23,695 nt of DNA, taken from a virus. The stretch covers positions 1 through 23,695 of IMG/VR virus record IMGVR_UViG_3300027704_000160. The stretch is one strand, 5' to 3'. Shown one piece after another: positions 3,001 to 23,222 of this stretch. The notes under the pieces are model-generated. The model saw nothing but the letters and a program-made list of their open reading frames with translations. It was not told the origin of the DNA and made no database searches. Both the position numbers and the translations under genes were made by a program. The first letter of the stretch is position 1. Every line of letters starts with the position of its first letter.

Positions 3001-3646
3001 CTAAAGCTTTAGGAGCTTCAAAAGAAAACCAAGCTGCCGTACTTAAGTTACTAGGCTGAGGACGATCTAAATATATAGTATTGCTAGATATTTTAGCTAT
3101 CTTAGTTCCTTCAGTAGCTATGTTAGATGCACTAGAGAATATGTGTGCTTTAACTACCATACCAACTCTGTATATAGAAGCATCTGTTACAGACATTACA
3201 GGTACAGTACTGGAGCTTGTTAAAGAAGTAAAGCCAGCTGGAGTAGTTTCTGCTATACCAAATACGTCTACAACCACTGGTTTGTAACTACCATCTGAGT
3301 CCTGCTCTATTATCGAGTCGACGTAAAATTGCCTTGTAAAAGCACCACTAATTGGAGTTGAAGGTGTGAATAACCTAGGACTAGCAAACAAGAAGTAACC
3401 TTTATTATTTCTTTCATCCGCTACAGATCCAATACATTTAGTTTTCTCACCTGAAAAATTAGTGGTTAAGTGAGACAAGCCCTTACTTGAGTTCCCCTCT
3501 AAGTTCTGTACAGTACCAGCAGCACCACCTTCTGTAGTTCTAACTTGTATATTTAAAGCATCTCTATACTCACCATTAGGAACAAGTCTTTCATCAAGAT
3601 CCTTATTCATACGCCCGGCGGTGAATGTGTGTTTAATTTCTGCCAT
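1..3646 (-). CDS. Very large tail/stabilisation protein, P22 gp10-like N terminus (partial, C terminus outside window)
   Basis: The frame is open for 1215 codons from the ATG at 3646 to the window edge, where no stop has been reached, so the protein is truncated by the window. The N terminus (residues 11-33) reads GRMNKDLDERLVPNGEYRDA followed by LNI. This resembles the opening of phage tail stabilisation proteins such as P22 gp10 and the large tail proteins of crAss-like phages. The rest is mostly beta-rich with few cysteines, as expected for a virion protein. It starts 5 bases after the stop of the 300-residue neck gene, so the two are co-transcribed. By position and size I infer a tail hub or 'muzzle'-type component at the end of the short tail. 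A large tail fibre is the main alternative. That it is a structural protein is likely; the exact role is uncertain. Confidence 0.75.
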   Translation of the reverse strand, partial: MAEIKHTFTAGRMNKDLDERLVPNGEYRDALNIQVRTTEGGAAGTVQNLEGNSSKGLSHLTTNFSGEKTKCIGSVADERNNKGYFLFASPRLFTPSTPISGAFTRQFYVDSIIEQDSDGSYKPVVVDVFGIAETTPAGFTSLTSSSTVPVMSVTDASIYRVGMVVKAHIFSSASNIATEGTKIAKISSNTIYLDRPQPSNLSTAAWFSFEAPKALEFDYNSRVTGINVIDDFLFYTDNSSEPKKINIRRSKAGTVSPQTAVPNHTKLVLKNKNGALQAGSDYVGTVEPVTKDHFTVIRKAPRTAPSLKLKSSVREGSTEYTITGKNFTIGGWTDADGVDYATIPIASVGVNILEGDHVKLTCLNDTQGLVSTVRGIYHPANVDGGLTFITLLSISSDTLASHTEWLVELVQPGKPLFELKFPRFAFRYKYNDNEYSSFSPWSEIAFIPSKFDYDQKKGHNLGMTNLLREVTITNLLQDITVRPDDIKSIDILYKSTDSPNVYVAKTVEKGVDPEWSDISTSTNSHDIVITSEMIHKTVPSDQILRSWDNVPRLAKAQEIVGNRLIYGNYTQGYDMPSTVAIRQSMVSKDITTILNPEKSIKTLRSYRFGLIIGDEYGRETPVISVGTRSETNPSTTNSYSNDSTSINKSEAVKSNSFLVTQDWANSQPDNWMDYAKYYIKETSSEYYNLVMDRWYDADDGNVWVSFPSAERNKVDEETYLILKKKHGENSLVESEARYKIIAIENEAPEFIKLDMRLMGSRGMDSDQMGIDGNVEHLKTSSVFELSLASFGSFFNDSESEGTLKVRVKAVTSLGNYYTSYREVSRLSIPNSDLGIDGSINIVRPFGDEANFPTILVDTGVFPAAQTAIDDLEYFLEFLDEVVVNKPEFDGRFFVKLQRDFALIENILKPYGSSSNYTSIQSFRIGYIDTGSFNNPATSGPKASYNFNGFGYFTTFSDFDNFRPIYQGNQSVFSNFFNLTDSFWESYSSQMQYLEVNGGNGVVGFIDAAAHSDYDAHYSGEFPFNESLRGLTKSGDNDVDSSTYDRLYMSCVSGYGSISGTPFDNLRYRLTDVGTLFRFSSDQLNTYMVVGGSGTDDYLTSMYNLSTNPISSNARTSFYTTFRRVDSNGLLTNEGIDITNWDPRGQVAHDGSEFQLIEIVDLLLDESGFTKVDNKSAIFETEPKDSVDLDLYYEASNAIPLRLTNDNTSEFTPLKS

Positions 3647-3651
3647 CTATA

Positions 3652-4554
3652 TTACTTTATAGGTTTACTTAAACCCTTTAACACTTGAGTGAACTCTTCT
3701 ATCTTAATGCTAGATAGCCTTATCTTAGCTTTTCTAGCTTCAGCAAATCTTTCTTTCTTAAATCGCTGTACTATATATTCAGGTATATTAGATCTTGAGG
3801 CCAACACACCGTACGCTATCCATTTATATACAGCTTCTTCTGCAAACTTATGTACAACCATTTCGTTGTCTGTACCTAAACCATCGCTTATGTAATGCAG
3901 TACGATAGTCGAACCTGCTAGAGCAGATCCAAAGTGTATCATACCTTTGTTAGCATCGATATAGAAAGTGCCATTATCTTGAGCGTGTTGTGGATCAAGA
4001 CCATATCTTCTACCATAATGATCTAAATAATTTTCATTAGTCTCATAGTCATTTCTAATTTCATTAGGGGTGTGTGACTTGTAACCTGTCCACGTGTCTG
4101 AATCTGTTTGGTATTGAAGATCGTTTGACACCGATGTTGATCCATCAATAGTTTGATTAAAATCATAACTACCATCAGCTGTTTGGTTTATAGCAAATGG
4201 GTTTGAAGTCTTACCAGTAGGATATAAAACCCTCTCAATACCGTCAGTACCACTCGTGGTCATCTTACTATAGTTTACATAGTCTTGAGGCAATATCATT
4301 TGAAGCGTGTTAGGTACTTCAATCTCTTGGGCTTTTATGGATCTAAATATGTCATAGCTAAATTCCTGTATAGCTCTCATTGCGTGGAACTGTATATCAG
4401 TTCTATTTACTTTACTAATCAACTTGCTCTCACCAACGTATGCTACCATAAAACCATTTATGATACTATCCAATGAAGTGAACTGATAATCCCCGTAGTT
4501 ACCAGAATTACCAGAGCTGTAATATGTATTTTGATTTTGTGATAATAAACCCAT
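3652..4554 (-). CDS. Neck/tail adaptor-type structural protein (300 aa)
   Basis: This 300-residue protein starts 2 bases after the previous stop and ends 5 bases before the giant tail gene. Residues 1-25 are rich in Asn, Gln, Ser, Gly and Tyr, suggesting a flexible N-terminal arm. Residues about 45-85 form a predicted helical segment (DIQFHAMRAIQEFSYDIFRS), followed by a beta-rich middle and a basic helical C terminus (about 255-300). No enzymatic motif is visible. From memory, similar proteins sit between head and tail genes in uncultured marine phages and crAss-like phages, where they are annotated as structural or neck proteins. I infer a head-tail connector ring or tail tubular protein. 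There is no signal peptide or membrane segment. Confidence in a virion role is moderate; the specific ring is not assignable from sequence alone. Confidence 0.6.
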   Translation of the reverse strand: MGLLSQNQNTYYSSGNSGNYGDYQFTSLDSIINGFMVAYVGESKLISKVNRTDIQFHAMRAIQEFSYDIFRSIKAQEIEVPNTLQMILPQDYVNYSKMTTSGTDGIERVLYPTGKTSNPFAINQTADGSYDFNQTIDGSTSVSNDLQYQTDSDTWTGYKSHTPNEIRNDYETNENYLDHYGRRYGLDPQHAQDNGTFYIDANKGMIHFGSALAGSTIVLHYISDGLGTDNEMVVHKFAEEAVYKWIAYGVLASRSNIPEYIVQRFKKERFAEARKAKIRLSSIKIEEFTQVLKGLSKPIK

Positions 4555-5342: not shown

Positions 5343-5711
5343 TTACTGAAATTTACTTAGTGTTATATTGTCTATAACTGTCTGAACCTGTTTCTTAGTT
5401 GCCTGTAATTGCATCATAATGTTGGGGTCAAACCTAGACTGCTCTACCCCGTTATCAAATATTATAACTGTAGGTATAGAGGTTACTTTATATTTCTTCT
5501 GAATACTAGCACCTTTGACAATACACAACCTATACGGTTCGCAGTCTTTCAATGATTTTAGAAATTCAACTTGATTACCTTGATTCCACTCAGCCCAGAA
5601 CTCTACTACAGTTATACCTTTAGCTGTCCTAGAATTAAACGTATCTTTAGATATAAATTCTTGCGCATTGATTAAAGCAGGTAACATAAATACTAGTAAC
5701 AACTTATTCAT
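5343..5711 (-). CDS. Exported thioredoxin-fold protein lacking the CxxC active site
   Basis: The 122-residue product has a clear signal peptide (MNKLLLVFMLPALINA, probable cut before Gln17), so it should reach the periplasm of a Gram-negative host. The mature part follows the thioredoxin plan: a strand TVVEFWAEW at 34-42 and the cis-proline loop TSIPTVIIFDNG at 77-88. Where thioredoxins carry WCGPC this protein has WNQGNQ (42-47), so both redox cysteines are gone. Two other cysteines, C57 and C63, remain in DCEPYRLC. It overlaps the upstream one-helix membrane protein by 8 bases, and a strong terminator follows. I infer a non-redox binding or scaffold role at the cell envelope, or a disulfide-dependent role using C57/C63. 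The thioredoxin fold is fairly sure; function is unknown. Confidence 0.75.
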   Translation of the reverse strand: MNKLLLVFMLPALINAQEFISKDTFNSRTAKGITVVEFWAEWNQGNQVEFLKSLKDCEPYRLCIVKGASIQKKYKVTSIPTVIIFDNGVEQSRFDPNIMMQLQATKKQVQTVIDNITLSKFQ

Positions 5712-7059: not shown

Positions 7060-7308
7060 TTAGCATTTCCATCTACGTCTAGCTGCTTTGCCTCTCTCAC
7101 TTGTCCAACTTTTGGATCTAGCACAGAAGGATTTTCTACGACCAGCAGCTTTACTACCTGGTTTTACTTTACCAGTAACAGCTGTCTTGAGCTTACTACC
7201 AGGATTCTTCTTCTTGTAAGCGGCTACACCTTTTTTAGTCATACCCGCACCTTCTTTAATAGTAAGGAAATTTCTTCCCTTACCTTTAGTTGTCTTACGT
7301 ATTGCCAT
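7060..7308 (-). CDS. Small very basic protein, DUF6321-like (82 aa)
   Basis: Most of the protein is Lys, Arg, Gly, Ala and Ser. The C-terminal half carries the pattern GSKAAGRRKSFCARSKSW and ends RRRWKC. From memory this KSFCARxxx...WxC pattern belongs to a short phage family annotated DUF6321; I could not check this. Its strong positive charge suggests nucleic-acid binding, for example in the virion or at the ribosome, but no function is known to me. It lies 14 bases after the 118-residue gene and 11 bases before the outer-membrane-like gene (start at 7048), in the same orientation. The leader before its ATG is A-rich without a Shine-Dalgarno sequence. Confidence 0.7.
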   Translation of the reverse strand: MAIRKTTKGKGRNFLTIKEGAGMTKKGVAAYKKKNPGSKLKTAVTGKVKPGSKAAGRRKSFCARSKSWTSERGKAARRRWKC

Positions 7309-7681: not shown

Positions 7682-9937
7682 TTAATTTGAATGTGCAGAT
7701 AATCCTGCGTTATAATTGTTGGTTATTTCCTCCTGAGTTAGTGCTTCATTATACACTACAACCTCGTCAATAATTTCGTCCAACCCCTCTGTAAAATCTT
7801 GACTAACTCCTATAAGTAAAGGTTTTATATTTGTAGGTATAGCCCCAGTATGTGATGTACTTCCATCAGCGTTTCCATTCAAATAGAATTGAATAGTAGA
7901 ACCATCATAAACTACAGATAAATAATTCCATTGATTAATAGGCGGATATGTATTAGAGTTGAATTGCGTACTACCTATAAATAACCTAGATTTAACTGAA
8001 GCGTTACCCACATACCAAGTGTAAGCATTACCTTTATTTACTAAAGAAGAATACCCTGACTCTCTTTGGTATACCCAAGCTGATAAAGTTAATTCAGTTG
8101 TTATATCTAAAGTAGTATCATCAACCACTTCAGCATAACCCGAACCATCTAAGTTGAAAGCATACTCTCTTAGTTTTAATGGGTTACCTAGAACATCATA
8201 CCCTACGTTGTTAGGGTTTTGAACTAGTGTAGCATTTATTGCTGATGAACCTGCTGTTCCGATATATGAGCCTACTGTCGAGGATTGCTCTAGTTGCCAT
8301 CCTACCACTTTAAAACCTTTTGAAGATTGAGTTGTGTATTTAATAATACCATTATTTGTAGACGTTGAAGTAACTGTCTTTGTTTTAGAAACCCTCCATA
8401 TATTACCACTAACATTGGTTTTCGTATTAGTTCCTCCTGCAACAGCATTACCTAAAACAAGTCCAAAATCACCACTAGAAGCAGTATTGGTAATATCAGG
8501 TTCACTATTATCATCCATAATAACAAAAGCTGATAAAGTATATTCTAAACCTGAAGTAACAGAACTTCCATACCTAAACCTAAGTGATGAATTATCGCCA
8601 AATTCAGTAGCATTTTTAAATCCAATATAATTCCAAGAATAAGATGCGTAAGTTGTATTTTGTTCTGCAGATTCATCAGATGTAGGCTCACTGTTTAAAT
8701 ACAAATTACTCCCCTTACTCCAATCCATCATACCCAACTGAGGGATAGTAGGTTGTTGGTCATCGTATGTAGCACCACTAATAGTCCCGTCATTGCCCTC
8801 GCCTGAACTATCGTAAGCAATCGAACCTGCACCCTCACTCAAAGCCCAATAGCCTTTTAGATTAGATAGAGCAACAGTCGAATTAGGGTTATCCGTTACG
8901 AGGTGGTTAGGGTTGTTGTAGTCGAAGGTATAATCACTTTGCTCTAAATCACCTTGCCAAATTTGAATATTCGATAAAGTACCATTAAAAAAGGTTTGAG
9001 CTTTCCCTATCCTATTGAAATCTAATACTGAAGAAGGGTTGAATGTGATTGAAGATAAAAAAACACCATTTAGATAACCTTTACAAGTTTGATTAGTTAC
9101 ATCATACTCGTAAGCTATTCTATTGTAAGAACCATCTGATACTACATCTGAACTAAATGTTTGTTTTATCCAACCACCGTTATGGTAAGACGCAGAAAGT
9201 TGACCTCCATCTATACCAAACACAACAAAATAGTTATCTCTTGAAAATATGGGGTTTGCTCCCGACACCGAAGTCGTTGTGTCTGTAGACTTAACTGTAG
9301 CCATAAAAGTCCAAACACCACTTTGAGGGTTGATTCCATTACCTATATCAACATAATCATTAACCCCATCAAAGCTAAGAGCCTTCCCTGTAAATAACTT
9401 ACCTACATTTGAATTACCCGATTTGTCGGGAACGAATTGGGCTACTTCTTTTACTGTTACGCTATTTACTTCTGCTATCTTACTTGATAAGCCTAGTACT
9501 GTAACCGCAAAAGTTGAACTAGATGCTATTCTATAGAAAGTACTCTCGCCAACTTCTAAACTATAGTCAAGATATGAACCATCAGCGATCAATCTAACCC
9601 CTGCAGCAGAAGTGGACTCCACATTTATAGTAATTTTATATTTTCTACCTGCTTTTACTGTAAATACATTAGAAACCAAAGATGAACTTACTCCTGATTG
9701 TGTTCCATCTAATGTAGCACTACTGCCACTAATAGACCAACCATCTCCTGTAGTCCAATATGTTCCTGTTATGTTCTCTGCCTGTGTACCTGTCAAAGCG
9801 AAATCCACATCGGAAATAAATCCGACATCTTCTATCATAGTCGTTGTAAAACCAAGCCACGTTTTAAGTCCACTAGTTATTACAGAAATAATACTAGCAA
9901 GTCCTGACAAGACAATTGAATTACCTAAACCTAACAT
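7682..9937 (-). CDS. Two-LamG-domain virion adhesin / fibre (751 aa)
   Basis: The protein has four beta-rich modules after a hydrophobic N-terminal helix (about 8-30). Residues 42-168 look like a carbohydrate-binding jelly roll. Residues 185-345 are a LamG/concanavalin-like domain opening with ALSFDGVNDYVDIGNG. Residues 405-565 form a second jelly roll ending GWQLEQSSTVGSYIGTAG, a pattern common in phage head and tail fibres. Residues 590-745 are a second LamG domain (LTLSAWVYQ, then WNYLSVVYDGSTIQFYLNG). LamG domains bind glycans, so I infer that this virion protein attaches to host polysaccharide or to particles. It starts 1 base after the 88-residue virion protein, close to the capsid gene, so it could be a head fibre rather than a tail fibre. 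The N-terminal helix may be its anchor. Confidence 0.75.
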   Translation of the reverse strand: MLGLGNSIVLSGLASIISVITSGLKTWLGFTTTMIEDVGFISDVDFALTGTQAENITGTYWTTGDGWSISGSSATLDGTQSGVSSSLVSNVFTVKAGRKYKITINVESTSAAGVRLIADGSYLDYSLEVGESTFYRIASSSTFAVTVLGLSSKIAEVNSVTVKEVAQFVPDKSGNSNVGKLFTGKALSFDGVNDYVDIGNGINPQSGVWTFMATVKSTDTTTSVSGANPIFSRDNYFVVFGIDGGQLSASYHNGGWIKQTFSSDVVSDGSYNRIAYEYDVTNQTCKGYLNGVFLSSITFNPSSVLDFNRIGKAQTFFNGTLSNIQIWQGDLEQSDYTFDYNNPNHLVTDNPNSTVALSNLKGYWALSEGAGSIAYDSSGEGNDGTISGATYDDQQPTIPQLGMMDWSKGSNLYLNSEPTSDESAEQNTTYASYSWNYIGFKNATEFGDNSSLRFRYGSSVTSGLEYTLSAFVIMDDNSEPDITNTASSGDFGLVLGNAVAGGTNTKTNVSGNIWRVSKTKTVTSTSTNNGIIKYTTQSSKGFKVVGWQLEQSSTVGSYIGTAGSSAINATLVQNPNNVGYDVLGNPLKLREYAFNLDGSGYAEVVDDTTLDITTELTLSAWVYQRESGYSSLVNKGNAYTWYVGNASVKSRLFIGSTQFNSNTYPPINQWNYLSVVYDGSTIQFYLNGNADGSTSHTGAIPTNIKPLLIGVSQDFTEGLDEIIDEVVVYNEALTQEEITNNYNAGLSAHSN

Positions 9938-11271: not shown

Positions 11272-12735
11272 TTACGCTGCGTTAGTTTCTAATAAACAGA
11301 AATTATTAGCACCTTGAGTTACTAAACATCTTTCAGATAAGAAGTGCATTTCCATTGCATCTAAATCTGAAGTAGCTGCTCCAACTGAACCTGTAGTCCA
11401 AGTTTTGAAACGGCGATCTTCCATACCTGCAGCTCTATAACGAACATGTAAGAACGGACGTCTGATGTTTTTACCCATAGCTTGGTCGTAAACCGAACTA
11501 GTACCTGCGGGAACTATAATACCAGCAGTTCTATAAGCGTTAGCAGAACCAACATTACCTCTAGTAGCTGAATCATTTAAGTATTTCCAGTCAGACTTGT
11601 AGAAGTCATAAGAACCTCTTCTAAATCCAGAGAAACCTAAGTTCAACGCCATTTCAGCACTGTTATCAAATACACCGTAAGAATTACCTGCAGCTGTATT
11701 TATTTGACCACCTAACATATCATCGATCTGTAAAGACTGGTCTCTATTTAAGAACATCATATTCTCTTCAATAGCACCTTGCTTATCGAATTCTTTAAGA
11801 ATAAAATCGAAATCGTCTAATGTATTACTTGCTGCAAAGCCATCAGCGATAATACCTCTTTCTCTAACAGCAGCGAACAAACCTTGAGTACCATCTAATT
11901 TACCAGCAATAAGCTCAGCGTTAGTAGATACTTCAGATTCAATCATAGTCATTTCACAGTAATCAGTAAAACGAACCTTAGTATCACCTGCAGCTTTTAA
12001 GTACCACATGTAACCTGATTGACCGTCTTCACCTGAAACTTCAACCCAACCGATTTGAGCCGCATCAGATCCAGAAACCTCGTACTTATCTTTCAAGATA
12101 GCCATTTTGTTCCCGTAAGATTTGAACTCAGGCTCAACAGCTTCAGCTCTACCAACAGAACCTTTAGCAGCAGCAGAACCATAAACGAATAAAGTAACAG
12201 CCTCGCCAGCACCACCAGTACCAGTAACACCTAAAGCTACATAAGCTGATGTACCTATAAAAGGAACTAAATGTACACTGTTAGTAGATAAAGTAATAGC
12301 TCCACCTACAGCGCTTGCAGGAGCAGTTGCGATAGCAGAAACTACACATGCAGCAGTTTTATTGTTACCAGCATGAGACACAACAACTGTATCGCCTACT
12401 CTAAGACCGTGTCCAGCAGGTAAAGCTATTTTACCATTTGCTACGGTAGTACCAGAAGCAGCACCGTCTAGAGTACCTGCATAAGATAGGTGTAAACGAC
12501 CTTGTTCAGACCAAACTACTTGATCAGATGCAGAAGCTTCTTCAGCCCCAACTTGTTCTAAAAATCCAGATACCGTTCGGTTACCAAATACTTCAGCCTC
12601 TTTTTCCATAAGGTCTGGTAAGTACTGTTGTGCCCAGGTAGTATCAGTAGTACCTGTAAAGTCTAAATAATTGCTAGCTAATGCTTGCTTGCCCGGAGCA
12701 GGAGTACCTGTCGGGGCGTTTTGATTAATTGCCAT
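11272..12735 (-). CDS. Major capsid protein, HK97-like fold expected (487 aa)
   Basis: The 487-residue protein follows terminase, portal and a scaffold-like gene, the standard order for a capsid gene. It is long, soluble and Ala/Gly-rich, with no signal peptide. Near the N terminus it reads WAQQYLPDLMEKEAEVFGN (about 34-52), followed by a Gly/Ala/Val-rich beta insertion at about 85-190, which may be a surface domain. The C-terminal part (about 430-487) contains RPFLHVRYRAAGMEDRRFKT. I recall close relatives annotated as major capsid protein in marine phages. No maturation protease is visible between portal and capsid, so any processing would need a gene outside the window. A strong terminator follows at once, and the leader before its ATG is AATTAAGAAAAG, A-rich with no Shine-Dalgarno sequence, as for highly expressed flavobacterial genes. 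Confidence 0.82.
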   Translation of the reverse strand: MAINQNAPTGTPAPGKQALASNYLDFTGTTDTTWAQQYLPDLMEKEAEVFGNRTVSGFLEQVGAEEASASDQVVWSEQGRLHLSYAGTLDGAASGTTVANGKIALPAGHGLRVGDTVVVSHAGNNKTAACVVSAIATAPASAVGGAITLSTNSVHLVPFIGTSAYVALGVTGTGGAGEAVTLFVYGSAAAKGSVGRAEAVEPEFKSYGNKMAILKDKYEVSGSDAAQIGWVEVSGEDGQSGYMWYLKAAGDTKVRFTDYCEMTMIESEVSTNAELIAGKLDGTQGLFAAVRERGIIADGFAASNTLDDFDFILKEFDKQGAIEENMMFLNRDQSLQIDDMLGGQINTAAGNSYGVFDNSAEMALNLGFSGFRRGSYDFYKSDWKYLNDSATRGNVGSANAYRTAGIIVPAGTSSVYDQAMGKNIRRPFLHVRYRAAGMEDRRFKTWTTGSVGAATSDLDAMEMHFLSERCLVTQGANNFCLLETNAA

Positions 12736-13921: not shown

Positions 13922-16264
13922 TTACATTCCGAATTTACTCATACCAGCTCCACCTGTTAATACATCATTACCTGATGATTCAAACTTTTTAACGGTTTCA
14001 CCTTGTTTTATTTGCTTTTGAGCTTCAAGTTTTTTATCTTCTCTTGCATCTTTCCTGCTATCTTCAGCTCCTTTAAGTCCCATGCTTAACTCATGCTCTA
14101 ACCTCATTAACTCTTTTTTAACTTCAGCTTCTCTTTCTAAGTACTGCATTCTAAGCTCATTCTTTGTCTGCTCTAATTGAGCCTCCGACTGAGTCTTAGC
14201 TTGATTCTTCTGTACTTCAGCTTGAGCTGCTGCTGCTTGGGCCTGTTGATTAGCCTGTGATTGAGCTTGAATATTTTGCTGTTGCATCTGCTGATCTCTC
14301 TCGGCTTTCTTTTTACGCTTAACTTTAAGTAATTGATTTGCTAGTTTTATATTTCTAACATCCCTTAAGTCTATAGCATCGTCCAGTTCAATCATTCCTT
14401 GACCTAGTGCTACTTGAATGTTATTCTCTAGCATTTGACGTTCTTCATCATCTGGCATTAACTCTATAAAGATACCAAAATCGTAAAGATGAAGATCTTT
14501 TATTTCCTCTAGTGTAGCTACGTTATGAGAACCTATAGCTCTAACAAACGCTTCTTTAGTAGGTGAGTATTCAACAATATCAGAAATCCTTAAAGAAAGT
14601 GACTCTGCAACCTCAGATGTTAAGTACATCATAGATTGTAATATATGTCTAGTTGCTGTATTAGAGTTAGCAGCTGCCATCTTCTGTATACCAACTAAAG
14701 CATTTTTATCTGGAGTAGATCCGTCTCTAGCTTCGTTCAAACCTGTTACGTCTCTAATCATTTGCATGTAGTAGTTATACGTAGTTATTAGACTCTGTAT
14801 TTTATTACCACCACTACCATTCTGTATTTGCTGAATTGGTATTTTACCAGGATTCATATCACCTTCAGAAGTAAATGACCTACCTATAACAGAACCTGTC
14901 TGGAAGAACATGTTTAAAGCTTCTTGAGGATTATAATTAGTACCATTACCTAAATCCACTTCAGCTAAACCATCAGCATCTAAGTAAACACCATCAGGTA
15001 CCATTCTGTTTAATACTTGTTGTAACTTTAAGTGAGTCAACTGAATCATATCAGCGAACCCAGTTATTCTATTAACTAACGATTGTATTCTACCTTCATA
15101 AACTCTAGGAGCTACTATGTTGTAATTCATTTTAACCTTACCGAAATCAGACTTAGAACGCATCATGTTACTAGCCATCTCCCACTTCAAGAGTTTATTA
15201 GACCCTAAAACATAAACACCTTCATATAGACACTCAACTACTTTGTTTAACCTACTGAATTCACCGTCCATATCAGATGGTGGGTTAAACGTATCGTCTT
15301 TAACTATTACTTTATCTGCTCCAGTACCTGTCTTCTTTAATTTGTAAACGTTATTAGCATGAGTCTTATAATTAAAATACAAGACGCTTACTTTATTCTT
15401 ATCATAACTAGCTCTCTTGTTTACAATATCATTAGGTCCTTCTACAATCTCTTCTATCTCTGACTCTGTTAGGTTAGGAAACTCCTTTACTAATTCGTTT
15501 ATAGGAATCTCTTTGACTTCCCCGACGTAATACATGTCTTCAAAGTATGGTGAATCAGTGTGAGAGTAAACTAAGTCAGCTGGATCTACATATTCAACTT
15601 TAGCTCCATCACTGTAATTAAACACAGTTTTAGTAGCACCTATACCTATAGTAACTAAATCATATATAGCTCGTCGCTTAACAAGGTCATAATTACATCC
15701 TTCTAATAGAGTGTTTATAGCCTGTTCTTCAGCTATCTCTATAGATTGCTTATAACTGAGTTGCATATGTAATGCTAACTCTTCTTCAGAGTCTGGTAGT
15801 GTTTCTTTTTTATTCTCATAAAGGTCTATACCCATTTGAGATTTTACAGTATCATTATACTCTTTAGACCTCATGTCTCTAAGCATAGACTCCATATATT
15901 CAGTTCTCTTGCTTACACCATAGTGGTCTTGAGAAAAAGCATTTATCTCATAAGATCTTTGAGACATACCGTTAACTACTATATCTACAAACTTAGATAT
16001 AATAGGTACTGGCTTCCAATCTAGGTTTAAGTAGCTAAGGTCACCATTTATTGATAGTTCGTTTTTATACTTTTCTATAGGTTGTTCACCTCTAGCGTAT
16101 AATCGTAACTTGTGAAAATTATTACTGTTATCATGGTATCTATTGTTTATGCCATTGAACCATTCTGATTGAATAGCTCTAGCAACTCTCAGACCATAGT
16201 CTTGAGACATTTTTTCTAAATCACTTACCGCTTGCGACGGAAAGTTTATAACAGACTCTGCCAT
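13922..16264 (-). CDS. Portal protein (780 aa)
   Basis: The gene starts 1 base after the large terminase stop, the usual place for a portal. Residues about 75-110 include PVPIISKFVDIVVNGMSQRS, and residues 500-560 include a helical stretch with DVTGLNEARDGSTPDKNALV, similar to portals of the P22/crAss-like class. The last 140 residues (about 640-780) form a long Gln/Ala-rich and then charged coiled coil (QAQAAAAQAEVQKNQAKTQ), the expected place of a C-terminal barrel or crown that reaches into the capsid. The protein would form the dodecameric ring through which terminase pumps DNA and to which the neck proteins attach. Length is in the range for large podovirus portals. No odd breaks were seen. 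Confidence 0.85.
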   Translation of the reverse strand: MAESVINFPSQAVSDLEKMSQDYGLRVARAIQSEWFNGINNRYHDNSNNFHKLRLYARGEQPIEKYKNELSINGDLSYLNLDWKPVPIISKFVDIVVNGMSQRSYEINAFSQDHYGVSKRTEYMESMLRDMRSKEYNDTVKSQMGIDLYENKKETLPDSEEELALHMQLSYKQSIEIAEEQAINTLLEGCNYDLVKRRAIYDLVTIGIGATKTVFNYSDGAKVEYVDPADLVYSHTDSPYFEDMYYVGEVKEIPINELVKEFPNLTESEIEEIVEGPNDIVNKRASYDKNKVSVLYFNYKTHANNVYKLKKTGTGADKVIVKDDTFNPPSDMDGEFSRLNKVVECLYEGVYVLGSNKLLKWEMASNMMRSKSDFGKVKMNYNIVAPRVYEGRIQSLVNRITGFADMIQLTHLKLQQVLNRMVPDGVYLDADGLAEVDLGNGTNYNPQEALNMFFQTGSVIGRSFTSEGDMNPGKIPIQQIQNGSGGNKIQSLITTYNYYMQMIRDVTGLNEARDGSTPDKNALVGIQKMAAANSNTATRHILQSMMYLTSEVAESLSLRISDIVEYSPTKEAFVRAIGSHNVATLEEIKDLHLYDFGIFIELMPDDEERQMLENNIQVALGQGMIELDDAIDLRDVRNIKLANQLLKVKRKKKAERDQQMQQQNIQAQSQANQQAQAAAAQAEVQKNQAKTQSEAQLEQTKNELRMQYLEREAEVKKELMRLEHELSMGLKGAEDSRKDAREDKKLEAQKQIKQGETVKKFESSGNDVLTGGAGMSKFGM

Positions 16265-16265
16265 A

Positions 16266-18497
16266 TTACCGTTTAATTATTTTTGAGTTAAATCCATTGT
16301 TGCTGTATTTCGATACCATAATATTTAAAGGTTGTTTTTTAGTCTCAGGGTTTGGTCTATACATATGACGATTGCAAGCCATAATCGCTAAACCAGAACT
16401 TATAGATGCATCAAACTTAGTTCTTTTATTTATATCAAACTTAGACCAATCGTTTAGAGTGTCATTGAAATATGTAGTACCATAAGTACCATCCTCTTGC
16501 ATTCCGACGTGATCGTTTATATACATTTCAATAGCTGCTGCATGGGCTTGTTTTATATCCTCACTAGAGTTTGGCATACCACCAACTTCTTTTTCGGCTA
16601 CTGAAAGTTTATTCCATATCTTATCAGGTCTGTTCATACTAAAACCTCTGTAACCTCTTCTACGTAAATAGTACAATAGACGAGGTTTATTATTCTCTGC
16701 GAGTATTGGCATCCCGTAAAATACTAGTGCCATTAGAACATCCTCAAAGAAGATCTCGGCAGTTTGAGGTCTAGCTAAGTACTGTAAGAAAAATGTATTA
16801 GCTGGAGCATCTTCCATACTAAACTTTGTTAGTCCGTGCAAAGCTCCTTTAGAGCCCTTACCATCTACAGTACCACTAATGTCGTAACTATCACAACCAA
16901 ATGCTCCAACGTGTTCGTTACCAGGATATTTAATCCCGTTCTTTAAAACTACATTGTTTTGCATGTTAGCATTAGGTACCCAACTAATATCAAATCTACC
17001 ATTAGGGTCTGGGTTAAAAGTGACTTTAGTATCTTTAACACCGTTCTGCCACTGAAAGTTACCTCTAGTAACGACCGATGAGTTTCTATTACCTTCATTG
17101 TAATCTATTTGCTCGTATATTTTTACAAGGTTAAATAGACTTTGTTTTGTTTCATCTCTAAAAGCGTGCTCTTCAGTTCTAGGGAATTGACGGTAGAATT
17201 CATTTAAAGCATCCTGATCACCTCTAAGACCTTCGACTTCGTTCTCCCAGTTATCAATCACACCGTATTCTATTTCGTCACCTCTAGGATCTAATACTGT
17301 GGTTTCTGGGTCATTGAATACTGGTATACCATATTGATCTATAAACCCTTCGTAGTTCCATTCCATTGGAACGAACAAGGAATATAAGCCAGACTTAGTC
17401 TGACCGTTTTTATTTCTTTTATTTACATCAGAGTCTTTATATAAGTCTTTGAAATTCTGACCACCTTTATCTAGTGCATTAGAGGTTGAACCCATTAGGC
17501 ACTTACCTATAATTCTACTACCTAAACGTAAACAAGTCTTAGTTACTCTCCAATTGTTCTTTATATTATCTGGCCTCTCCCATTTACCGCTTTCATCATG
17601 TACAAGTAAAGCTAGTTTCTCTCCATCATAACTGTTGTCACCAGTGTTCTTCCAGTCAATAGTAGTATCTAAACCTTGTATGTCATCAATCTCTTCGCGC
17701 TCCCTCATCTTTCTACGCGTAAACTTCTTAGCAGGTACTCTATATGCTAGTTCTGATTTCGGACGGTCCATACCATCTTGAATCGGCTTGAAAAAGAAAG
17801 GGTAGTTAAAGCTTATGGGTACTACCTTATCTGTAAACATTTTCTTGGCATCACCACCAGACTTTGATAAGATCCCAAATCTACTATCACTTGCTAAGGT
17901 AGCTAAATTAACGGTTTCAGCCGAGCTCATAAATGAAAAACCTGAACGACGGTTCTTAAGGTAACACATACCGTAGCAGCGTTTGTCAGCTTTACAAGCC
18001 TCCCAGAACAGGAAGAATAACCTGTTAGCCTCTCTGAAATCTGGAGCCCCAACATCTATCTTACTCCATTGAAGGTACATGTAATAAGAACCAGTTAAGT
18101 AAGTAGGTTCACCATTGTTCATGAACCAAAAACCGTTGTCTCTTCTATTGAACTCTTCGTCTATGTAAGTATAATGTTCTTCCTTAAAACTCTCAGGCTG
18201 GTTTTGCCAATCGAATACCGTTTTTATTTTATTTATTATAGGACTCTCTTCAAACTTCTCCCACTTCTGTTCGACTTTACTTTTACCTCGTGAATAAACA
18301 GACTTAGGTGCTAGAGGCAGGGCTATTTTTAAACCCTGTATTTCTAGCACCTCACCTATTTGACCAGTCTTAGATATTACAACGAAGTCATGCTCCTTGT
18401 TGTAGCCATGCTTCCAACCTTTAGACTTGTTTAACCTATTTAAAGTGTTTAACCTTACTGGTTCTATTGTTTTTACTAAGCTCTGATTGTACTTCAT
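16266..18497 (-). CDS. terL: Terminase large subunit (743 aa)
   Basis: This is the packaging motor: an N-terminal ATPase and a C-terminal RNase H-type nuclease. Residues 178-192 (CYLKNRRSGFSFMSS) are at the place of the Walker A loop, which is divergent and lacks the usual GKT/S ending. LALLVHDESG at 295-304 is a clear Walker B with D301 and E302. CLMGSTSNALDKGG at 333-346 matches the coupling motif. In the nuclease, FGCDSYDISG at 533-542 gives the first metal-binding Asp (D536), EN at 601-602 is a candidate for the second acidic site, and FDASISSGLAIMA at 695-707 gives the late Asp (D696/697 region). FREANRLFFLFWEACKADKR (154-173) is a pattern I recall from marine and crAss-like phage terminases. 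The gene overlaps the upstream small-terminase candidate by 4 bases and is followed after 1 base by the portal. Confidence 0.93.
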   Translation of the reverse strand: MKYNQSLVKTIEPVRLNTLNRLNKSKGWKHGYNKEHDFVVISKTGQIGEVLEIQGLKIALPLAPKSVYSRGKSKVEQKWEKFEESPIINKIKTVFDWQNQPESFKEEHYTYIDEEFNRRDNGFWFMNNGEPTYLTGSYYMYLQWSKIDVGAPDFREANRLFFLFWEACKADKRCYGMCYLKNRRSGFSFMSSAETVNLATLASDSRFGILSKSGGDAKKMFTDKVVPISFNYPFFFKPIQDGMDRPKSELAYRVPAKKFTRRKMREREEIDDIQGLDTTIDWKNTGDNSYDGEKLALLVHDESGKWERPDNIKNNWRVTKTCLRLGSRIIGKCLMGSTSNALDKGGQNFKDLYKDSDVNKRNKNGQTKSGLYSLFVPMEWNYEGFIDQYGIPVFNDPETTVLDPRGDEIEYGVIDNWENEVEGLRGDQDALNEFYRQFPRTEEHAFRDETKQSLFNLVKIYEQIDYNEGNRNSSVVTRGNFQWQNGVKDTKVTFNPDPNGRFDISWVPNANMQNNVVLKNGIKYPGNEHVGAFGCDSYDISGTVDGKGSKGALHGLTKFSMEDAPANTFFLQYLARPQTAEIFFEDVLMALVFYGMPILAENNKPRLLYYLRRRGYRGFSMNRPDKIWNKLSVAEKEVGGMPNSSEDIKQAHAAAIEMYINDHVGMQEDGTYGTTYFNDTLNDWSKFDINKRTKFDASISSGLAIMACNRHMYRPNPETKKQPLNIMVSKYSNNGFNSKIIKR

Positions 18498-18766
18498 TTA
18501 GATCTTCCTTCTGCGAAACCTTTAAAACTTGCTTTATTTTCTGAAACTTTCTTATCACCTAACATTTCTTCTTCTTCTTGTATTCTATTAAGAATTTCGA
18601 ACGCATCGAATATAGCGAGTTTCTTCGTTGCTGCAGCGTTTTTAAGCCTATCAGCTGTGATGTCATCACCACTATCAACAATAGCTTCTTTAGCAACCTT
18701 GATAAGTTCCTCAACAGCTTTATGTCCAGCTTGGATTATACTCTTCTTCGTTTCCTGTATATTCAT
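18494..18766 (-). CDS. Small terminase subunit candidate (90 aa)
   Basis: The protein is short, helical and charged, with GDDITADRLKNAAATKKLAI at about 33-52 and an acidic stretch EEEEML near residue 64-69. It ends in a basic tail. It overlaps the large terminase start by 4 bases, the usual place of the small, DNA-recognising terminase subunit. I recall similar proteins with the 'DDITADRLKNAAATKKLAIFDAF' pattern ahead of terL in marine phages, although their role is not proved. There is no clear helix-turn-helix. Its start lies 47 bases inside the preceding gene; there is no suitable later Met, so the overlap is probably real. Confidence 0.55.
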   Translation of the reverse strand: MNIQETKKSIIQAGHKAVEELIKVAKEAIVDSGDDITADRLKNAAATKKLAIFDAFEILNRIQEEEEMLGDKKVSENKASFKGFAEGRSK

Positions 18767-19298
18767 ACTCTACATTTATAAACCTATCCATAACTCTATA
18801 CAATCTCTCTCCGTCTATAACAAACTCAAACTCATCTCCAGGAGAGAAACCCACTAATGCTTCTTTATCAAAAGCCTTAGAGTATTTAACCACACCTATT
18901 AAAGGTATCTCAGTGTCAGCAACAAACTTATCTTTACATTTTAGCGGTTTTATGAACGTATAACCAGGAACTACTTTCCTGTCATTGGGCTTACCATACA
19001 TAAAGAATTGATCAGGCTGTAGTAGGAATTCATCATCATTTAAAAATCCTCTACCGTTTTTCTCAACACCCTTAACGTTGTGCCATCTTCTGAAGACATT
19101 GTGATGCACTATTAACTCATCTCCGACACTCACGTTTAATGGGTTGTGCATTGGCGTAGAAACAACTACGGCTCTACGGTTAATGTACGAGTGATTAAAT
19201 ATTTCTGTATTTAATATCAAACTCTTGTCACCAACCTTCACCGAGTTGTTATACCTATCACCCACTGGTTTTATAATAAAGTCTATTACTGGTCTCAT
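18720..19298 (-). CDS. Tandem GroES-like co-chaperonin-type protein (192 aa)
   Basis: The protein reads as two GroES-type barrels in a row. Repeat 1 (about 4-103): VIDFIIKPVGDR, then a loop KVGDKSLILNTEI at 21-33 that matches the GroES mobile loop with a hydrophobic triplet (LIL), then RRAVVVSTPM, NVSVGDELIVHHN at 55-67 and EFLLQPDQFFMYG at 90-102. GroES has the same order: mobile loop, GEVVAVG, VKVGDIVIF and a closing strand pair. Repeat 2 (about 112-178): YTFIKPL, IGVVKYSK, FSPGDEFEFVIDG and LYRVMDRFINVEYE. The second repeat has a less clear loop (KDKFVADTEIPL). Its stop lies inside the small-terminase gene, and its start shares 1 base with the previous stop. I infer a second co-chaperonin, or a GroES-derived assembly factor, for the phage chaperonin encoded upstream. 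The fold assignment is by eye. Confidence 0.6.
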   Translation of the reverse strand: MRPVIDFIIKPVGDRYNNSVKVGDKSLILNTEIFNHSYINRRAVVVSTPMHNPLNVSVGDELIVHHNVFRRWHNVKGVEKNGRGFLNDDEFLLQPDQFFMYGKPNDRKVVPGYTFIKPLKCKDKFVADTEIPLIGVVKYSKAFDKEALVGFSPGDEFEFVIDGERLYRVMDRFINVEYEYTGNEEEYNPSWT

Positions 19299-19794: not shown

Positions 19795-20208
19795 TTAATT
19801 GTTATTGTTTCCTTTAGACGAACCACCGAAGAAGAAGTCTACTATTGTATTTACTTTTGCACTCATAGCACCGAATGCTGAACTTATGAAACCTATTTCG
19901 TAATCACTAAGCTCTAGTGTATTCATCACAAAATACTTAAACATAACATATGTTATACCGAAGTAAGCCACAGTAAATAGTATAGCTAAGATCTTTTGAA
20001 TTATTGCATCATCTTGATATAAGCTTCTAGCACCTTGCCGATCCTCTACTTCCTTAGCAAAAGCTTCTTTCTCTGCCTCAAGAAGTATCTTCTTTAATTC
20101 AAGTTTAGCTTCATCTCTTTCTTTATCCGTAGTTATAACCTTGTCGAGTATACCCTCTGCGTTCTCAACAATCTTACCGAATAATCCACCTATTAATTTT
20201 CCTACCAT
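19795..20208 (-). CDS. Holin-like membrane protein, GTA/3TM holin type (137 aa)
   Basis: A charged, helical N-terminal half (residues 1-65, DKERDEAKLELKKILLEAEK) is followed by a strong transmembrane segment at about 70-94 (IIQKILAILFTVAYFGITYV) and a second hydrophobic stretch at 103-128. The end reads VDFFFGGSSKGNNNN; a C-terminal 'FFGGSS' after the last hydrophobic segment is typical of the holin family first described with gene transfer agents. Holins make the inner-membrane lesion that lets the lysis enzyme out. No endolysin is visible in the window, so its partner would be elsewhere. It starts 2 bases after the winged-helix-like gene. The membrane location is sure; the holin role is likely by family resemblance. 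Confidence 0.7.
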   Translation of the reverse strand: MVGKLIGGLFGKIVENAEGILDKVITTDKERDEAKLELKKILLEAEKEAFAKEVEDRQGARSLYQDDAIIQKILAILFTVAYFGITYVMFKYFVMNTLELSDYEIGFISSAFGAMSAKVNTIVDFFFGGSSKGNNNN

Positions 20209-20210
20209 AA

Positions 20211-20651
20211 TTATCTGTTTGGGTCTTTTATCATGTCATCTATAACTTTGTTCATAACCTTATCTGTGTAAGACTTATTGTTATAGTATTTATTACTAGA
20301 TGTCATTGGAATATCTTCTTCTCCTAGTAATATTTTATAAACTCTATTTATAAGTACGTTACACTTGTGAGATGTTTTAAATATAGAGTACTTTATAGTT
20401 GTTCTATTACGATGTCTCCACACATCTATCCAGCCTTGGTCTCTAAGTCTATCCCATCTTTTTTTATCCCAAGAGTAAGCGTATATACCGTTTATAAATT
20501 CATCTCTTGTAAACCTATTTAAACAGCTTAAGTATATGAGTAGCTCGAGATCAGCATCTTTTATATCATTCTGATTGCATGCCCACTTTCGAACTACCCT
20601 ATAATACTTAAGTAGATTTATTTCTTTTAAATCCTCAGCCGTTATTCTCAT
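20211..20651 (-). CDS. Probable winged-helix protein (146 aa)
   Basis: Residues 10-80 have a helix-helix-helix-wing order: INLLKYYRVVRKWACNQNDI, DADLELLIYLSCLNRFTRDE, then KRWDRLRDQGWIDVWRHRNR with an aromatic turn, and a wing-like TTIKYSIF. This order resembles MarR-like winged-helix domains that bind DNA. The C-terminal third is basic and Asn/Lys-rich. I recall related unnamed proteins in marine phages. It overlaps the GroES stop by 4 bases (ATGA), so its translation is coupled to the chaperonin genes. It may be a late-gene regulator or a packaging helper; both are inference. Confidence 0.55.
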   Translation of the reverse strand: MRITAEDLKEINLLKYYRVVRKWACNQNDIKDADLELLIYLSCLNRFTRDEFINGIYAYSWDKKRWDRLRDQGWIDVWRHRNRTTIKYSIFKTSHKCNVLINRVYKILLGEEDIPMTSSNKYYNNKSYTDKVMNKVIDDMIKDPNR

Positions 20652-20902
20652 TCAACTAATACGATGTCTCTGAGTTTTATAACTCTATACATAACCTCGT
20701 TGTACCTAACATCATGCCCTGAATGCTTGTCATACATTATTGTCATACCGGTACTTACAATAGAGGCTAGGTCTCCAACTGAAATTACTTCAGCTTTCTT
20801 GTATCTATTATCTGAGTCAGTGTTGTCAGTGAGTAATAACCCACCGACTTTCTTTTCTTCTTTTATAGTCTTTATAACTACATAATCATTAATTGCTTTC
20901 AT
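20648..20902 (-). CDS. groES: GroES-type co-chaperonin (84 aa)
   Basis: Residues 4-12 (INDYVVIKT) match the first GroES strand, and residues 14-31 form the mobile loop, with VGGLLLTDN at 19-27. The loop's Gly-Gly plus hydrophobic triplet (LLL; IVL in E. coli) is the part that grips GroEL. AEVISVGD at 37-44, MTIMYDKHSGHDVRYNEVMY at 53-72 and the closing DIVLVE at 79-84 complete the fold. At 84 residues it is shorter than the usual 95-100. It starts inside the end of the GroEL-type gene (14-base overlap) and so is translationally coupled to it, in the reverse of the common groES-groEL order. It should cap the phage chaperonin, the host chaperonin, or both. Confidence 0.85.
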   Translation of the reverse strand: MKAINDYVVIKTIKEEKKVGGLLLTDNTDSDNRYKKAEVISVGDLASIVSTGMTIMYDKHSGHDVRYNEVMYRVIKLRDIVLVE

Positions 20903-22454
20903 TTAATCTTACGTTTGAGATTACACAATCAGCGGACATAACAGTTAAAGCTACACTCACTGCATTTTTCAGCGCCGATTTTGTAACCAAAACCGGGTCT
21001 ATTATTCCAGCCTTAATCATATCGACTGTCTCACCTGTTACGACATTAATACCAAGTCCTTCACCCACTGAAGTCTGAGGATCAAGACCCGCATTAGCCA
21101 GTATAGTGATGAAAGGTGCTCTCAATGCTTCTAAGAGTACGTCAGCACCCACGTAAGTGGAAGAAATTTTTTCAGAAACATCAAGGAGTGCTACGCCCCC
21201 TCCAGAAACTATACCCTCTTGTAGAGCTGCTTTAGTAGCATATATAGCATCTTCTACTCTATCTTTCTTTTCTTTAAGCTCTACCTTGGAATTAGCTCCA
21301 ACCTTTATAATACCAACGCTTCCTGATAGAGTAGCTAGTCTTTGCTCTAACTTCTTCTTAATAAAATTATTCTGCTCTGTAGAGATTTGCTTATCTAACT
21401 CCTCTATGCGAGCCTCAACCTCTGAGGTAACTTCCTCTAGGGTTATAACAGTAGATTTACTATCTGTAACAGCGAACTCAGCTTCACCCAAATGATCTGG
21501 AGTGATTAAATCTAAGTCATCACCTAATTCTTCATTGATTACTGTAGAGCCTGTAAGTATTGCTAAGTCTTCCATAGCATCTTTACGTGTAGGACCAAAG
21601 CCAGGTGGGTCGATTATGTTAACCTTAATGTTACCCTTAACCTTATTCATCAGTAAAGCAGATTTAACTTGCTGTGATACCTGAGCTACTATAAGTAATG
21701 AACGATTACTCTTTATGACATGTTCTAATACGGACTGAATCTTACGTACGTTAGGGATCTCTGAGGACACTGTGAGGATATATGGGCTGTCTAATTCTGC
21801 TAAGTGCTTCTCCGTGTTTGTAATGAAGTGTGGGGATGTGATACCACAATCTATCTGAGCTCCATCGACTACGTCAACGTAAGTATCTTCACAATCGCTC
21901 TCTTCCATTAATACTACTCCATGTTTTCCCACTCTTTCATAAGCATCAGCTATTATAGCTCCAAGCTCGTTGTCGTTGTTACAAGAAATTGCAGCAACAG
22001 ATTTTAACATGTCTCCTTTTACTTCTACAGACATTTCGTCTAGCATAGATAAGACATCATCTAAGCAAGTATTAACTCCATCTTTTATTTCTCTGATTGG
22101 TAATCCTGCAGCGACGGCAAGATCTATAGATTTGATAAGCGCTTCGGCTAGTACAGTTGCAGTGGTCGTACCATCACCTGCTTCTTTTACTGTATTACGA
22201 GCTGCTTCTTTAATGAGTGTAGCACCCATATTCTCGACCGGATCAAATAAGACTACGCTTTCTGCAACGGTTACTCCGTCTTTTGTTATGATCGGTCTGC
22301 CTCGTCCATCTTCATATATCACGCATTTTCCTGATGCGCCCAGTGTGGACTTAACGGCTAGTGCTAACTTATTGACTCCGGCGATGATTCTGTTTTTAGC
22401 TTCACCACCGAAGTCTAAGTTCTTCACCAATTCACTTGGTAAGTTGTATTCCAT
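20889..22454 (-). CDS. groEL: GroEL-type chaperonin (521 aa)
   Basis: The full three-domain chaperonin plan is present. ITKDGVTVAESV (56-67), the nucleotide motif AGDGTTTATVLAEAL (92-106, with D94 equal to GroEL D87) and RVEDAIYATKAALQEGIVSG (399-418, with D402 equal to the ATPase residue D398) are intact, so ATP hydrolysis should work. The apical domain is recognisable (about 195-375) but differs from E. coli at substrate- and GroES-binding positions in my hand alignment (Y199 to I205, Y203 to H209, L234 to Q240). The C terminus stops at VRLNESN without the Gly-Gly-Met tail that fills the cavity floor in GroEL, giving 521 instead of 548 residues. It would form rings that fold proteins in the cytoplasm. 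It is a phage gene rather than a host remnant because it overlaps the next phage gene and lies in one operon with packaging genes. Confidence 0.92.
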   Translation of the reverse strand: MEYNLPSELVKNLDFGGEAKNRIIAGVNKLALAVKSTLGASGKCVIYEDGRGRPIITKDGVTVAESVVLFDPVENMGATLIKEAARNTVKEAGDGTTTATVLAEALIKSIDLAVAAGLPIREIKDGVNTCLDDVLSMLDEMSVEVKGDMLKSVAAISCNNDNELGAIIADAYERVGKHGVVLMEESDCEDTYVDVVDGAQIDCGITSPHFITNTEKHLAELDSPYILTVSSEIPNVRKIQSVLEHVIKSNRSLLIVAQVSQQVKSALLMNKVKGNIKVNIIDPPGFGPTRKDAMEDLAILTGSTVINEELGDDLDLITPDHLGEAEFAVTDSKSTVITLEEVTSEVEARIEELDKQISTEQNNFIKKKLEQRLATLSGSVGIIKVGANSKVELKEKKDRVEDAIYATKAALQEGIVSGGGVALLDVSEKISSTYVGADVLLEALRAPFITILANAGLDPQTSVGEGLGINVVTGETVDMIKAGIIDPVLVTKSALKNAVSVALTVMSADCVISNVRLNESN

Positions 22455-22811: not shown

Positions 22812-23222
22812 TTATTTATTATTTTTAGGTCCTGCTTTAGATTTCTTAGGTGCCATAACTCCTTTACTATCTTTTCTAGAGTTATAAGCAACTGCAGCTT
22901 TCTTAAAGTCAGCAAACGATTTGTACTTCTTCTGTACTCCACCTTTGTCAGCTTCCCATGTTGCTTTATAAGTATTACCCGTACCTCTTGCAGTTTTAAC
23001 TTTTTTAATAGTTTTAGCTACAGCTACTTTTTTAGCTCTTGATACTGGAGCTGCTTTAGCAGGTGTAATCTTTCTAGCAACATAAGTACCTTTAGCCATA
23101 GACTTTACAGCTTTGTTCTCTGTTTTCTTAGCTACCTTAGTAGTTTTCTTAGCGGCTCTTTTAGCTTTATAGCTATCTACTTTCTCTTTAATTTTAGCTT
23201 TCGCTTTCTTGAATACTGGCAT
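22812..23222 (-). CDS. Lys/Ala-rich histone H1-like basic protein (136 aa)
   Basis: Residues 1-75 are built almost only of Lys, Ala, Val, Arg and Thr (KAKAKIKEKVDSYKAKRAAK, then KKTTKVAKKTENKAVKSMAK), much like the basic tails of histone H1 and bacterial Hc1-type proteins. Residues 80-112 are less biased (GNTYKATWEADKGGVQKKYK, SFADFKKAAVAY) and could be a small folded part. The end is again basic (KKSKAGPKNNK). Such proteins neutralise DNA charge. In a phage this could help to condense the genome, occupy host DNA or bind RNA; nothing in the sequence decides. The gene lies 38 bases after the split small gene and has the A-rich leader AAAACAAAGAC before its ATG. Confidence 0.65.
   Translation of the reverse strand: MPVFKKAKAKIKEKVDSYKAKRAAKKTTKVAKKTENKAVKSMAKGTYVARKITPAKAAPVSRAKKVAVAKTIKKVKTARGTGNTYKATWEADKGGVQKKYKSFADFKKAAVAYNSRKDSKGVMAPKKSKAGPKNNK

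Follow-up and report, generated by a model that had tools for sequence, protein, structure and literature searches.

An overlapping groEL-groES pair and a probable second, tandem co-chaperonin in a marine phage

A virus that encodes both GroEL and GroES raises the question of whether it carries a working folding machine of its own, where that machine came from and which proteins it would serve. The window analyzed here, 23,695 bases long, is a whole viral contig from a marine virus of Bacteroidetes-type bacteria, and every recognized gene in it lies on the minus strand. In the direction of transcription, two small basic or unknown genes precede groEL (20889–22454), which encodes a 521-residue group I chaperonin large subunit, and groES (20648–20902), which encodes an 84-residue Cpn10; both were identified from their open reading frames, Pfam and PHROGs. 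These are followed by the gene for a 146-residue protein with no assigned function (20211–20651; phrog_17028, E 2.7e-10), found after groES across the clade (90 loci), by a holin-like gene (19795–20208; weak match to phrog_3427, E 1.6e-4) and by two small genes. Next come a 192-residue protein assigned by PHROG, model and fold match to a tandem GroES fold (18720–19298), a 90-residue protein that is terminase-small-subunit-like by position only (18494–18766), the 743-residue terminase large subunit (16266–18497; phrog_6681, E 3.6e-171) and the 780-residue portal protein (13922–16264; phrog_6547, E 1.2e-137). A 378-residue product, the probable major capsid protein and more virion genes complete the order. 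The probable capsid protein (487 residues; 11272–12735; phrog_13704, E 4e-101) carries the PHROG label of a virion structural protein, and its capsid role is assigned from its position after the portal. The window also encodes a thioredoxin-like protein with a signal-peptide-like start within the virion gene run (5343–5711; PF00085, E 3.4e-5), a large, likely glycan-binding fibre protein in which two stretches are of the LamG/concanavalin lectin type (7682–9937; PF13385), and two small basic products, a DUF6321 protein (7060–7308; E 1.2e-10) and a lysine-rich, histone-like one (22812–23222).

The sequence-only reading of this locus had described an intact groEL that comes first and overlaps groES by 14 bases, which is what the minus-strand reading frames contain (overlap at 20889–20902, ATGAAAGCAATTAA). 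The operon arrangement on which it built is also kept by related phages. Among 93 distinct related IMG/VR loci with a full-length GroEL, identical ones having been removed, GroES lies downstream of groEL on the same strand in 92; the genes overlap in 89 loci, by exactly 14 nt in 71, which suggests translational coupling. GroEL is under purifying selection (dN 0.050 and dS 0.54 between the window and a related locus, L013); in the same comparison, dS exceeds 1 for both GroES (dN 0.088) and the tandem protein (dN 0.086). An overlap arising by chance or as a frameshift artefact was ruled out by the 92 conserved loci together with the low dN relative to dS. With dN far below dS and the order conserved, these are long-established genes that remain in use and have held their order.

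Several loci depart from this arrangement in detail. At L117 (185–1912), GroEL and GroES are fused in frame, and the fusion lacks approximately 26 residues from the GroES start, the mobile loop among them, through either a natural deletion or a misassembly. Three loci (L043, L058 and L108) carry a gene resembling 2OG-Fe(II) oxygenases between groEL and groES, the L043 copy matching PF13640 below the cut-off (E 0.0023). In Vibrio phage pv27, groEL (L254:2501–4081) is positioned between the genes for tail sheath and tail tube, and no annotated GroES adjoins it. The L012 GroEL (2089–3654) is 93% identical to that of the window, compared with 69% for GroES, 63% for the tandem GroES and 81% for the terminase; recombination between phage lineages has apparently swapped this allele.

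The earlier placement of the pair inside the head-gene operon was correct as to direction but loose as to position. The pair is co-directional with the run of tandem GroES, terminase, portal and capsid genes, but it lies 1.35 kb upstream of that run and is separated from it by holin-like and unknown genes. On the same strand downstream, the tandem GroES gene is found in all 78 loci that reach it and the terminase gene in all 61 that reach it. In distant relatives, the groEL-groES pair is not fixed beside the head genes: it lies on the strand opposite to its neighbours in elemo phages and approximately 9 kb from the terminase in MW202828. Operon position is therefore a poor guide to clients.

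The window's GroEL is a full-length Cpn60 (PF00118 over residues 31–514, 199.5 bits against a cut-off of 34.3, E 1.2e-58; phrog_5725, E 2.7e-140). Its identity of approximately 40% to bacterial GroEL, and a best PDB match to an ancestral Bacteroidetes-group reconstruction, could fit an auxiliary groEL-groES pair recently acquired from a host and giving general support to the infected cell. Phylogenetic analysis argues against such an origin. A 90-row GroEL tree unites 31 marine sequences in a single clade (support 100) on a long, phage-only stem of 1.8–1.9 changes per site, and grouping this clade with Bacteroidota was rejected by the AU test (p-AU 8e-6). In a 45-row tree, the phage clade has a support of 100/100, and a 100/97 branch places elemo, Panino, ctfjg026 and phi38:1, four GroEL-bearing phages with a tandem GroES, on the marine-clade side, opposite bacteria and two other phages, immuto and DAC23. 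The groEL-first phages fall on one side of a 93/79 branch, which is not decisive, and long branches make the precise order of branching within the phages uncertain. The phage GroEL clade nevertheless lies outside the bacteria and is not a recent host copy, so that the chaperonin tree proposed in the sequence-only reading leaves its phage origin standing. The reversed gene order and the altered apical groove described below also tell against a host copy, and Bacteroides phage DAC23 provides the contrast: its host-like GroEL is nested in Bacteroidota, with a small GroES-type gene first. Recent acquisition from a host is hence hardly credible.

Residues for ATP binding and hydrolysis, including GDGTT, are kept in all 31 clade members. 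D94 and D402, which had been proposed by hand alignment as intact ATP-site residues, do correspond to E. coli D87 and D398, and together with D59 (E. coli D52) they are invariant in 31/31. The window GroEL ends without a GGM tail. In the apical groove, E. coli L234 is replaced by Q and L259 by K in every clade member (Q240 and K264 in the window); L237 is retained, V263 is replaced by L or M and V264 by M, and further groove positions carry H, M and L/I in the clade alignment. E. coli mutants show that positions L234 and L259 contact both client and GroES. The rewritten groove may point to a narrow client set, although the L234Q and L259K replacements could instead mean weak client or lid binding. 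In the inter-ring loop, corresponding to the region of E. coli R452, E461 and S463, the contacts are not kept and the loop is shortened and variable; ring pairing is therefore argued to be weak or absent, which suggests a machine with one ring, or with rings that part readily.

The small partner is a Cpn10 by Pfam (PF00166, 41.9 bits against a cut-off of 21.1, E 1e-10), by PHROG (phrog_3188, E 1.1e-12) and by fold search, in which ranks 1–34 are exclusively Cpn10, Cpn20 and gp31 chains, 1g31 among them. De novo TIM-barrel matches, which fail on any single stretch, were disregarded. Its mobile loop carries the hydrophobic motif GGLLL (residues 20–24), within a block modeled at a pLDDT of 57, and a hydrophobic tripeptide (LIL, LLL, LIM or similar) precedes T in all 97 GroES sequences. 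Cpn10 proteins usually have a roof beta-hairpin; here it is absent, leaving a gap relative to Thermus and other canonical Cpn10. Taken together, the changes in the groove, the ring loop and the roofless lid suggest a specialist machine.

The GroEL-type chaperonins of phages EL (gp146), OBP (gp246) and AR9 (gp228) have an altered groove and altered ring-ring contacts, as in the window, but they are far more divergent and function without a co-chaperonin (PMC7185714, PMC9598537). A single-ring, cage-free holdase of this kind, for which GroES is no longer needed, would be compatible with the lost contacts around R452, E461 and S463 and the shortened loop. The window, however, retains a groES that overlaps groEL, is under selection and has an intact mobile loop, which makes a lidless holdase very improbable. 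The sequence-only reading took EL as its example of a chaperonin-encoding phage, a background that is outdated, since many phages besides EL encode GroEL; the search for phage GroEL matched 268 records, some of them bacterial contigs.

That reading had also called the folding machine self-contained. It does comprise a phage-owned, constrained GroEL and GroES, but a second, tandem GroES-fold protein was missed. The 192-residue protein matches phrog_13932, a family of 200 residues that PHROGs labels co-chaperonin GroES, and so do all 15 sequences aligned from the marine clade together with five isolate lineages. An AlphaFold2 model of the single chain, built from 38 viral sequences, has a pLDDT of 81, and its sole segment below 50 (residues 30–38) occupies the loop position just after an LIL tripeptide. 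The best PDB fold match, which is modest but spans the full length, is a Cpn20 co-chaperonin subunit (7ekq_R; 205 columns, E 7e-4, TM 0.53), followed by another long 7ekq chain and then only by Cpn10 chains to rank 30. The second half of the protein matches a phage GroES profile with a probability of 93. A Pfam search with the window's protein gave no Cpn10 match, a sub-threshold MazE match being taken as noise. Profile comparison of clade-only alignments returned nothing (probability 3), and domain 1 is therefore identified by its PHROG family, the predicted structure and the fold search. In domain 1, the mobile-loop position is occupied by LIL (residues 27–29 in the window's protein) in at least 98 of 118 distinct tandem proteins; this tripeptide is of the class that the GroES proteins of the same phages carry. 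In the tandem-family alignment, domain 2 has a shorter loop and no mobile-loop motif; with a docking-loop motif in domain 1 only, the protein is therefore named Cpn20-like rather than a Cpn20.

Distribution links this protein to GroEL. The tandem GroES is present in all 19 large GroEL-bearing contigs checked, and conversely GroEL is found in 10/10 tandem-GroES contigs that do not end upstream of the locus; four tandem-GroES contigs without GroEL do end there and were not counted as losses. On the model and this evidence, the 192-residue protein is probably a second co-chaperonin. Alternatively, GroEL-GroES would be a working phage chaperonin, while the 192-residue protein, its fold retained, would act in virion structure, scaffolding or packaging and bind terminase or capsid. 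Its gene keeps its place immediately upstream of the terminase (within 350 nt in 60/61 loci), whereas among relatives the groEL-groES pair does not stay next to the terminase. The most conserved stretch outside the loop, HHNVFRRWHNVKG, has no GroES counterpart, domain 2 lacks the docking motif, and the protein persists in phage phi46:3, which has GroES and tandem GroES but no GroEL. However, phi46:3 could use host GroEL with its single GroES, the co-occurrence with GroEL is strict in the marine clade, and LIL is conserved at the mobile-loop position, where the model places a flexible loop. We consider the structural role rather unlikely, and a second co-chaperonin the better account.

Comparison with known systems shows which parts of the locus have precedents. 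Marine et al. in 2017 (ISME J 11:2479) reportedly described GroEL/GroES pairs of marine viruses in which gene order tracked GroEL phylogeny; those viruses, like the window, have a GroES gene near a GroEL that is divergent and specific to phages. To our knowledge, that work makes no statement on a terminase-side tandem GroES, groove replacements or a shortened inter-ring loop. That some phages carry both GroEL and GroES has been noted with citation of that study (PMC7185714), GroEL was reported in 2017 in 36 of 78 environmental genomes of this flavobacterial podovirus group (PMC5332604), and Pervagoviridae have a cpn10 among their core genes (PMC8776804). A limited literature search found neither a tandem GroES in phages nor groove or ring-contact changes in this phage group, which is weak evidence of novelty; a full-text search on groEL/groES gene order returned nothing. 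Phage GroEL with GroES is thus largely known in kind, and the tandem GroES is the fresh element.

The window's terminase-portal-capsid lineage includes the phi38:1 group ('group 2' environmental Bacteroidetes phages, PMC5332604), elemo, Panino (PMC11590407) and the isolate ctfjg026. Cellulophaga phage phi38:1, Flavobacterium phage elemo, Maribacter phage Panino and ctfjg026 each have their own GroEL, GroES and tandem GroES, with GroEL 36–39% identical to that of the window and the pair elsewhere in the genome. In elemo and ctfjg026, groEL is followed by an overlapping or abutting groES, as in the window; in Panino a small orf intervenes, and phi38:1, unlike the window, has groES first. Gundel_1 has no GroEL, GroES or tandem GroES.

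T4 gp31 resembles the window's GroES in having a mobile loop and no roof loops, the lack of which gives gp31 a wider opening (PMC6318259). T4, however, relies on host GroEL, whereas the window phage brings its own GroEL and a second GroES-fold protein; a system of a lid without phage GroEL would fit phi46:3 but not the window. The closest parallel to the tandem protein is the chloroplast and apicoplast Cpn20, in which two GroES folds lie head to tail beside a single-domain Cpn10, the chloroplast proteins forming hetero-oligomers (PMC5780408). Identity to Cpn20 is approximately 16% and the phage protein has the loop motif in domain 1 only; the phage tandem GroES is probably an independent fusion.

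We therefore favor, at a probability of roughly two in three, a dedicated phage chaperonin, possibly a single ring, that works with two co-chaperonins and serves head and packaging proteins. On the established genes, modeled folds, conserved motifs, order, co-occurrence and phage ancestry, we infer its ring state, mixed lid and clients as follows. Translation of GroES would begin at the overlapping start codon, coupled to that of groEL, and GroEL, judged by its family, would form seven-membered rings and hydrolyze ATP. GroES would dock through its GGLLL mobile loop, its roofless lid closing a cage with more room, in the manner of gp31. The tandem protein may replace GroES or mix with it in the lid, as chloroplast Cpn20 does with Cpn10, a role proposed from its fold, its loop and its co-occurrence with GroEL, with the plastid system as precedent. 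Clients would most plausibly be head or packaging proteins from the co-directional downstream genes, by gene position and the T4 gp23 precedent only; the capsid or portal put forward in the sequence-only reading would be candidates by the shared direction of their genes. A more specific version, in which a single-ring GroEL with a mixed lid of roofless GroES and Cpn20-like protein forms an asymmetric, partly open cage for large head or packaging clients such as the portal and terminase, as an independent viral parallel to Cpn10/Cpn20, is doubtful enough to be offered only tentatively.

These findings bear on why some phages carry a whole chaperonin even though the host has one. Phages of this lineage form a natural series, from GroEL with roofless GroES and tandem GroES, through co-chaperonins only (phi46:3), to none of the three (Gundel_1), which allows one to ask which part serves which client, and the fixed polar groove residues make client specificity directly testable. 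Furthermore, a second origin of tandem co-chaperonins, if true, would be informative about how lids accommodate odd-numbered rings.
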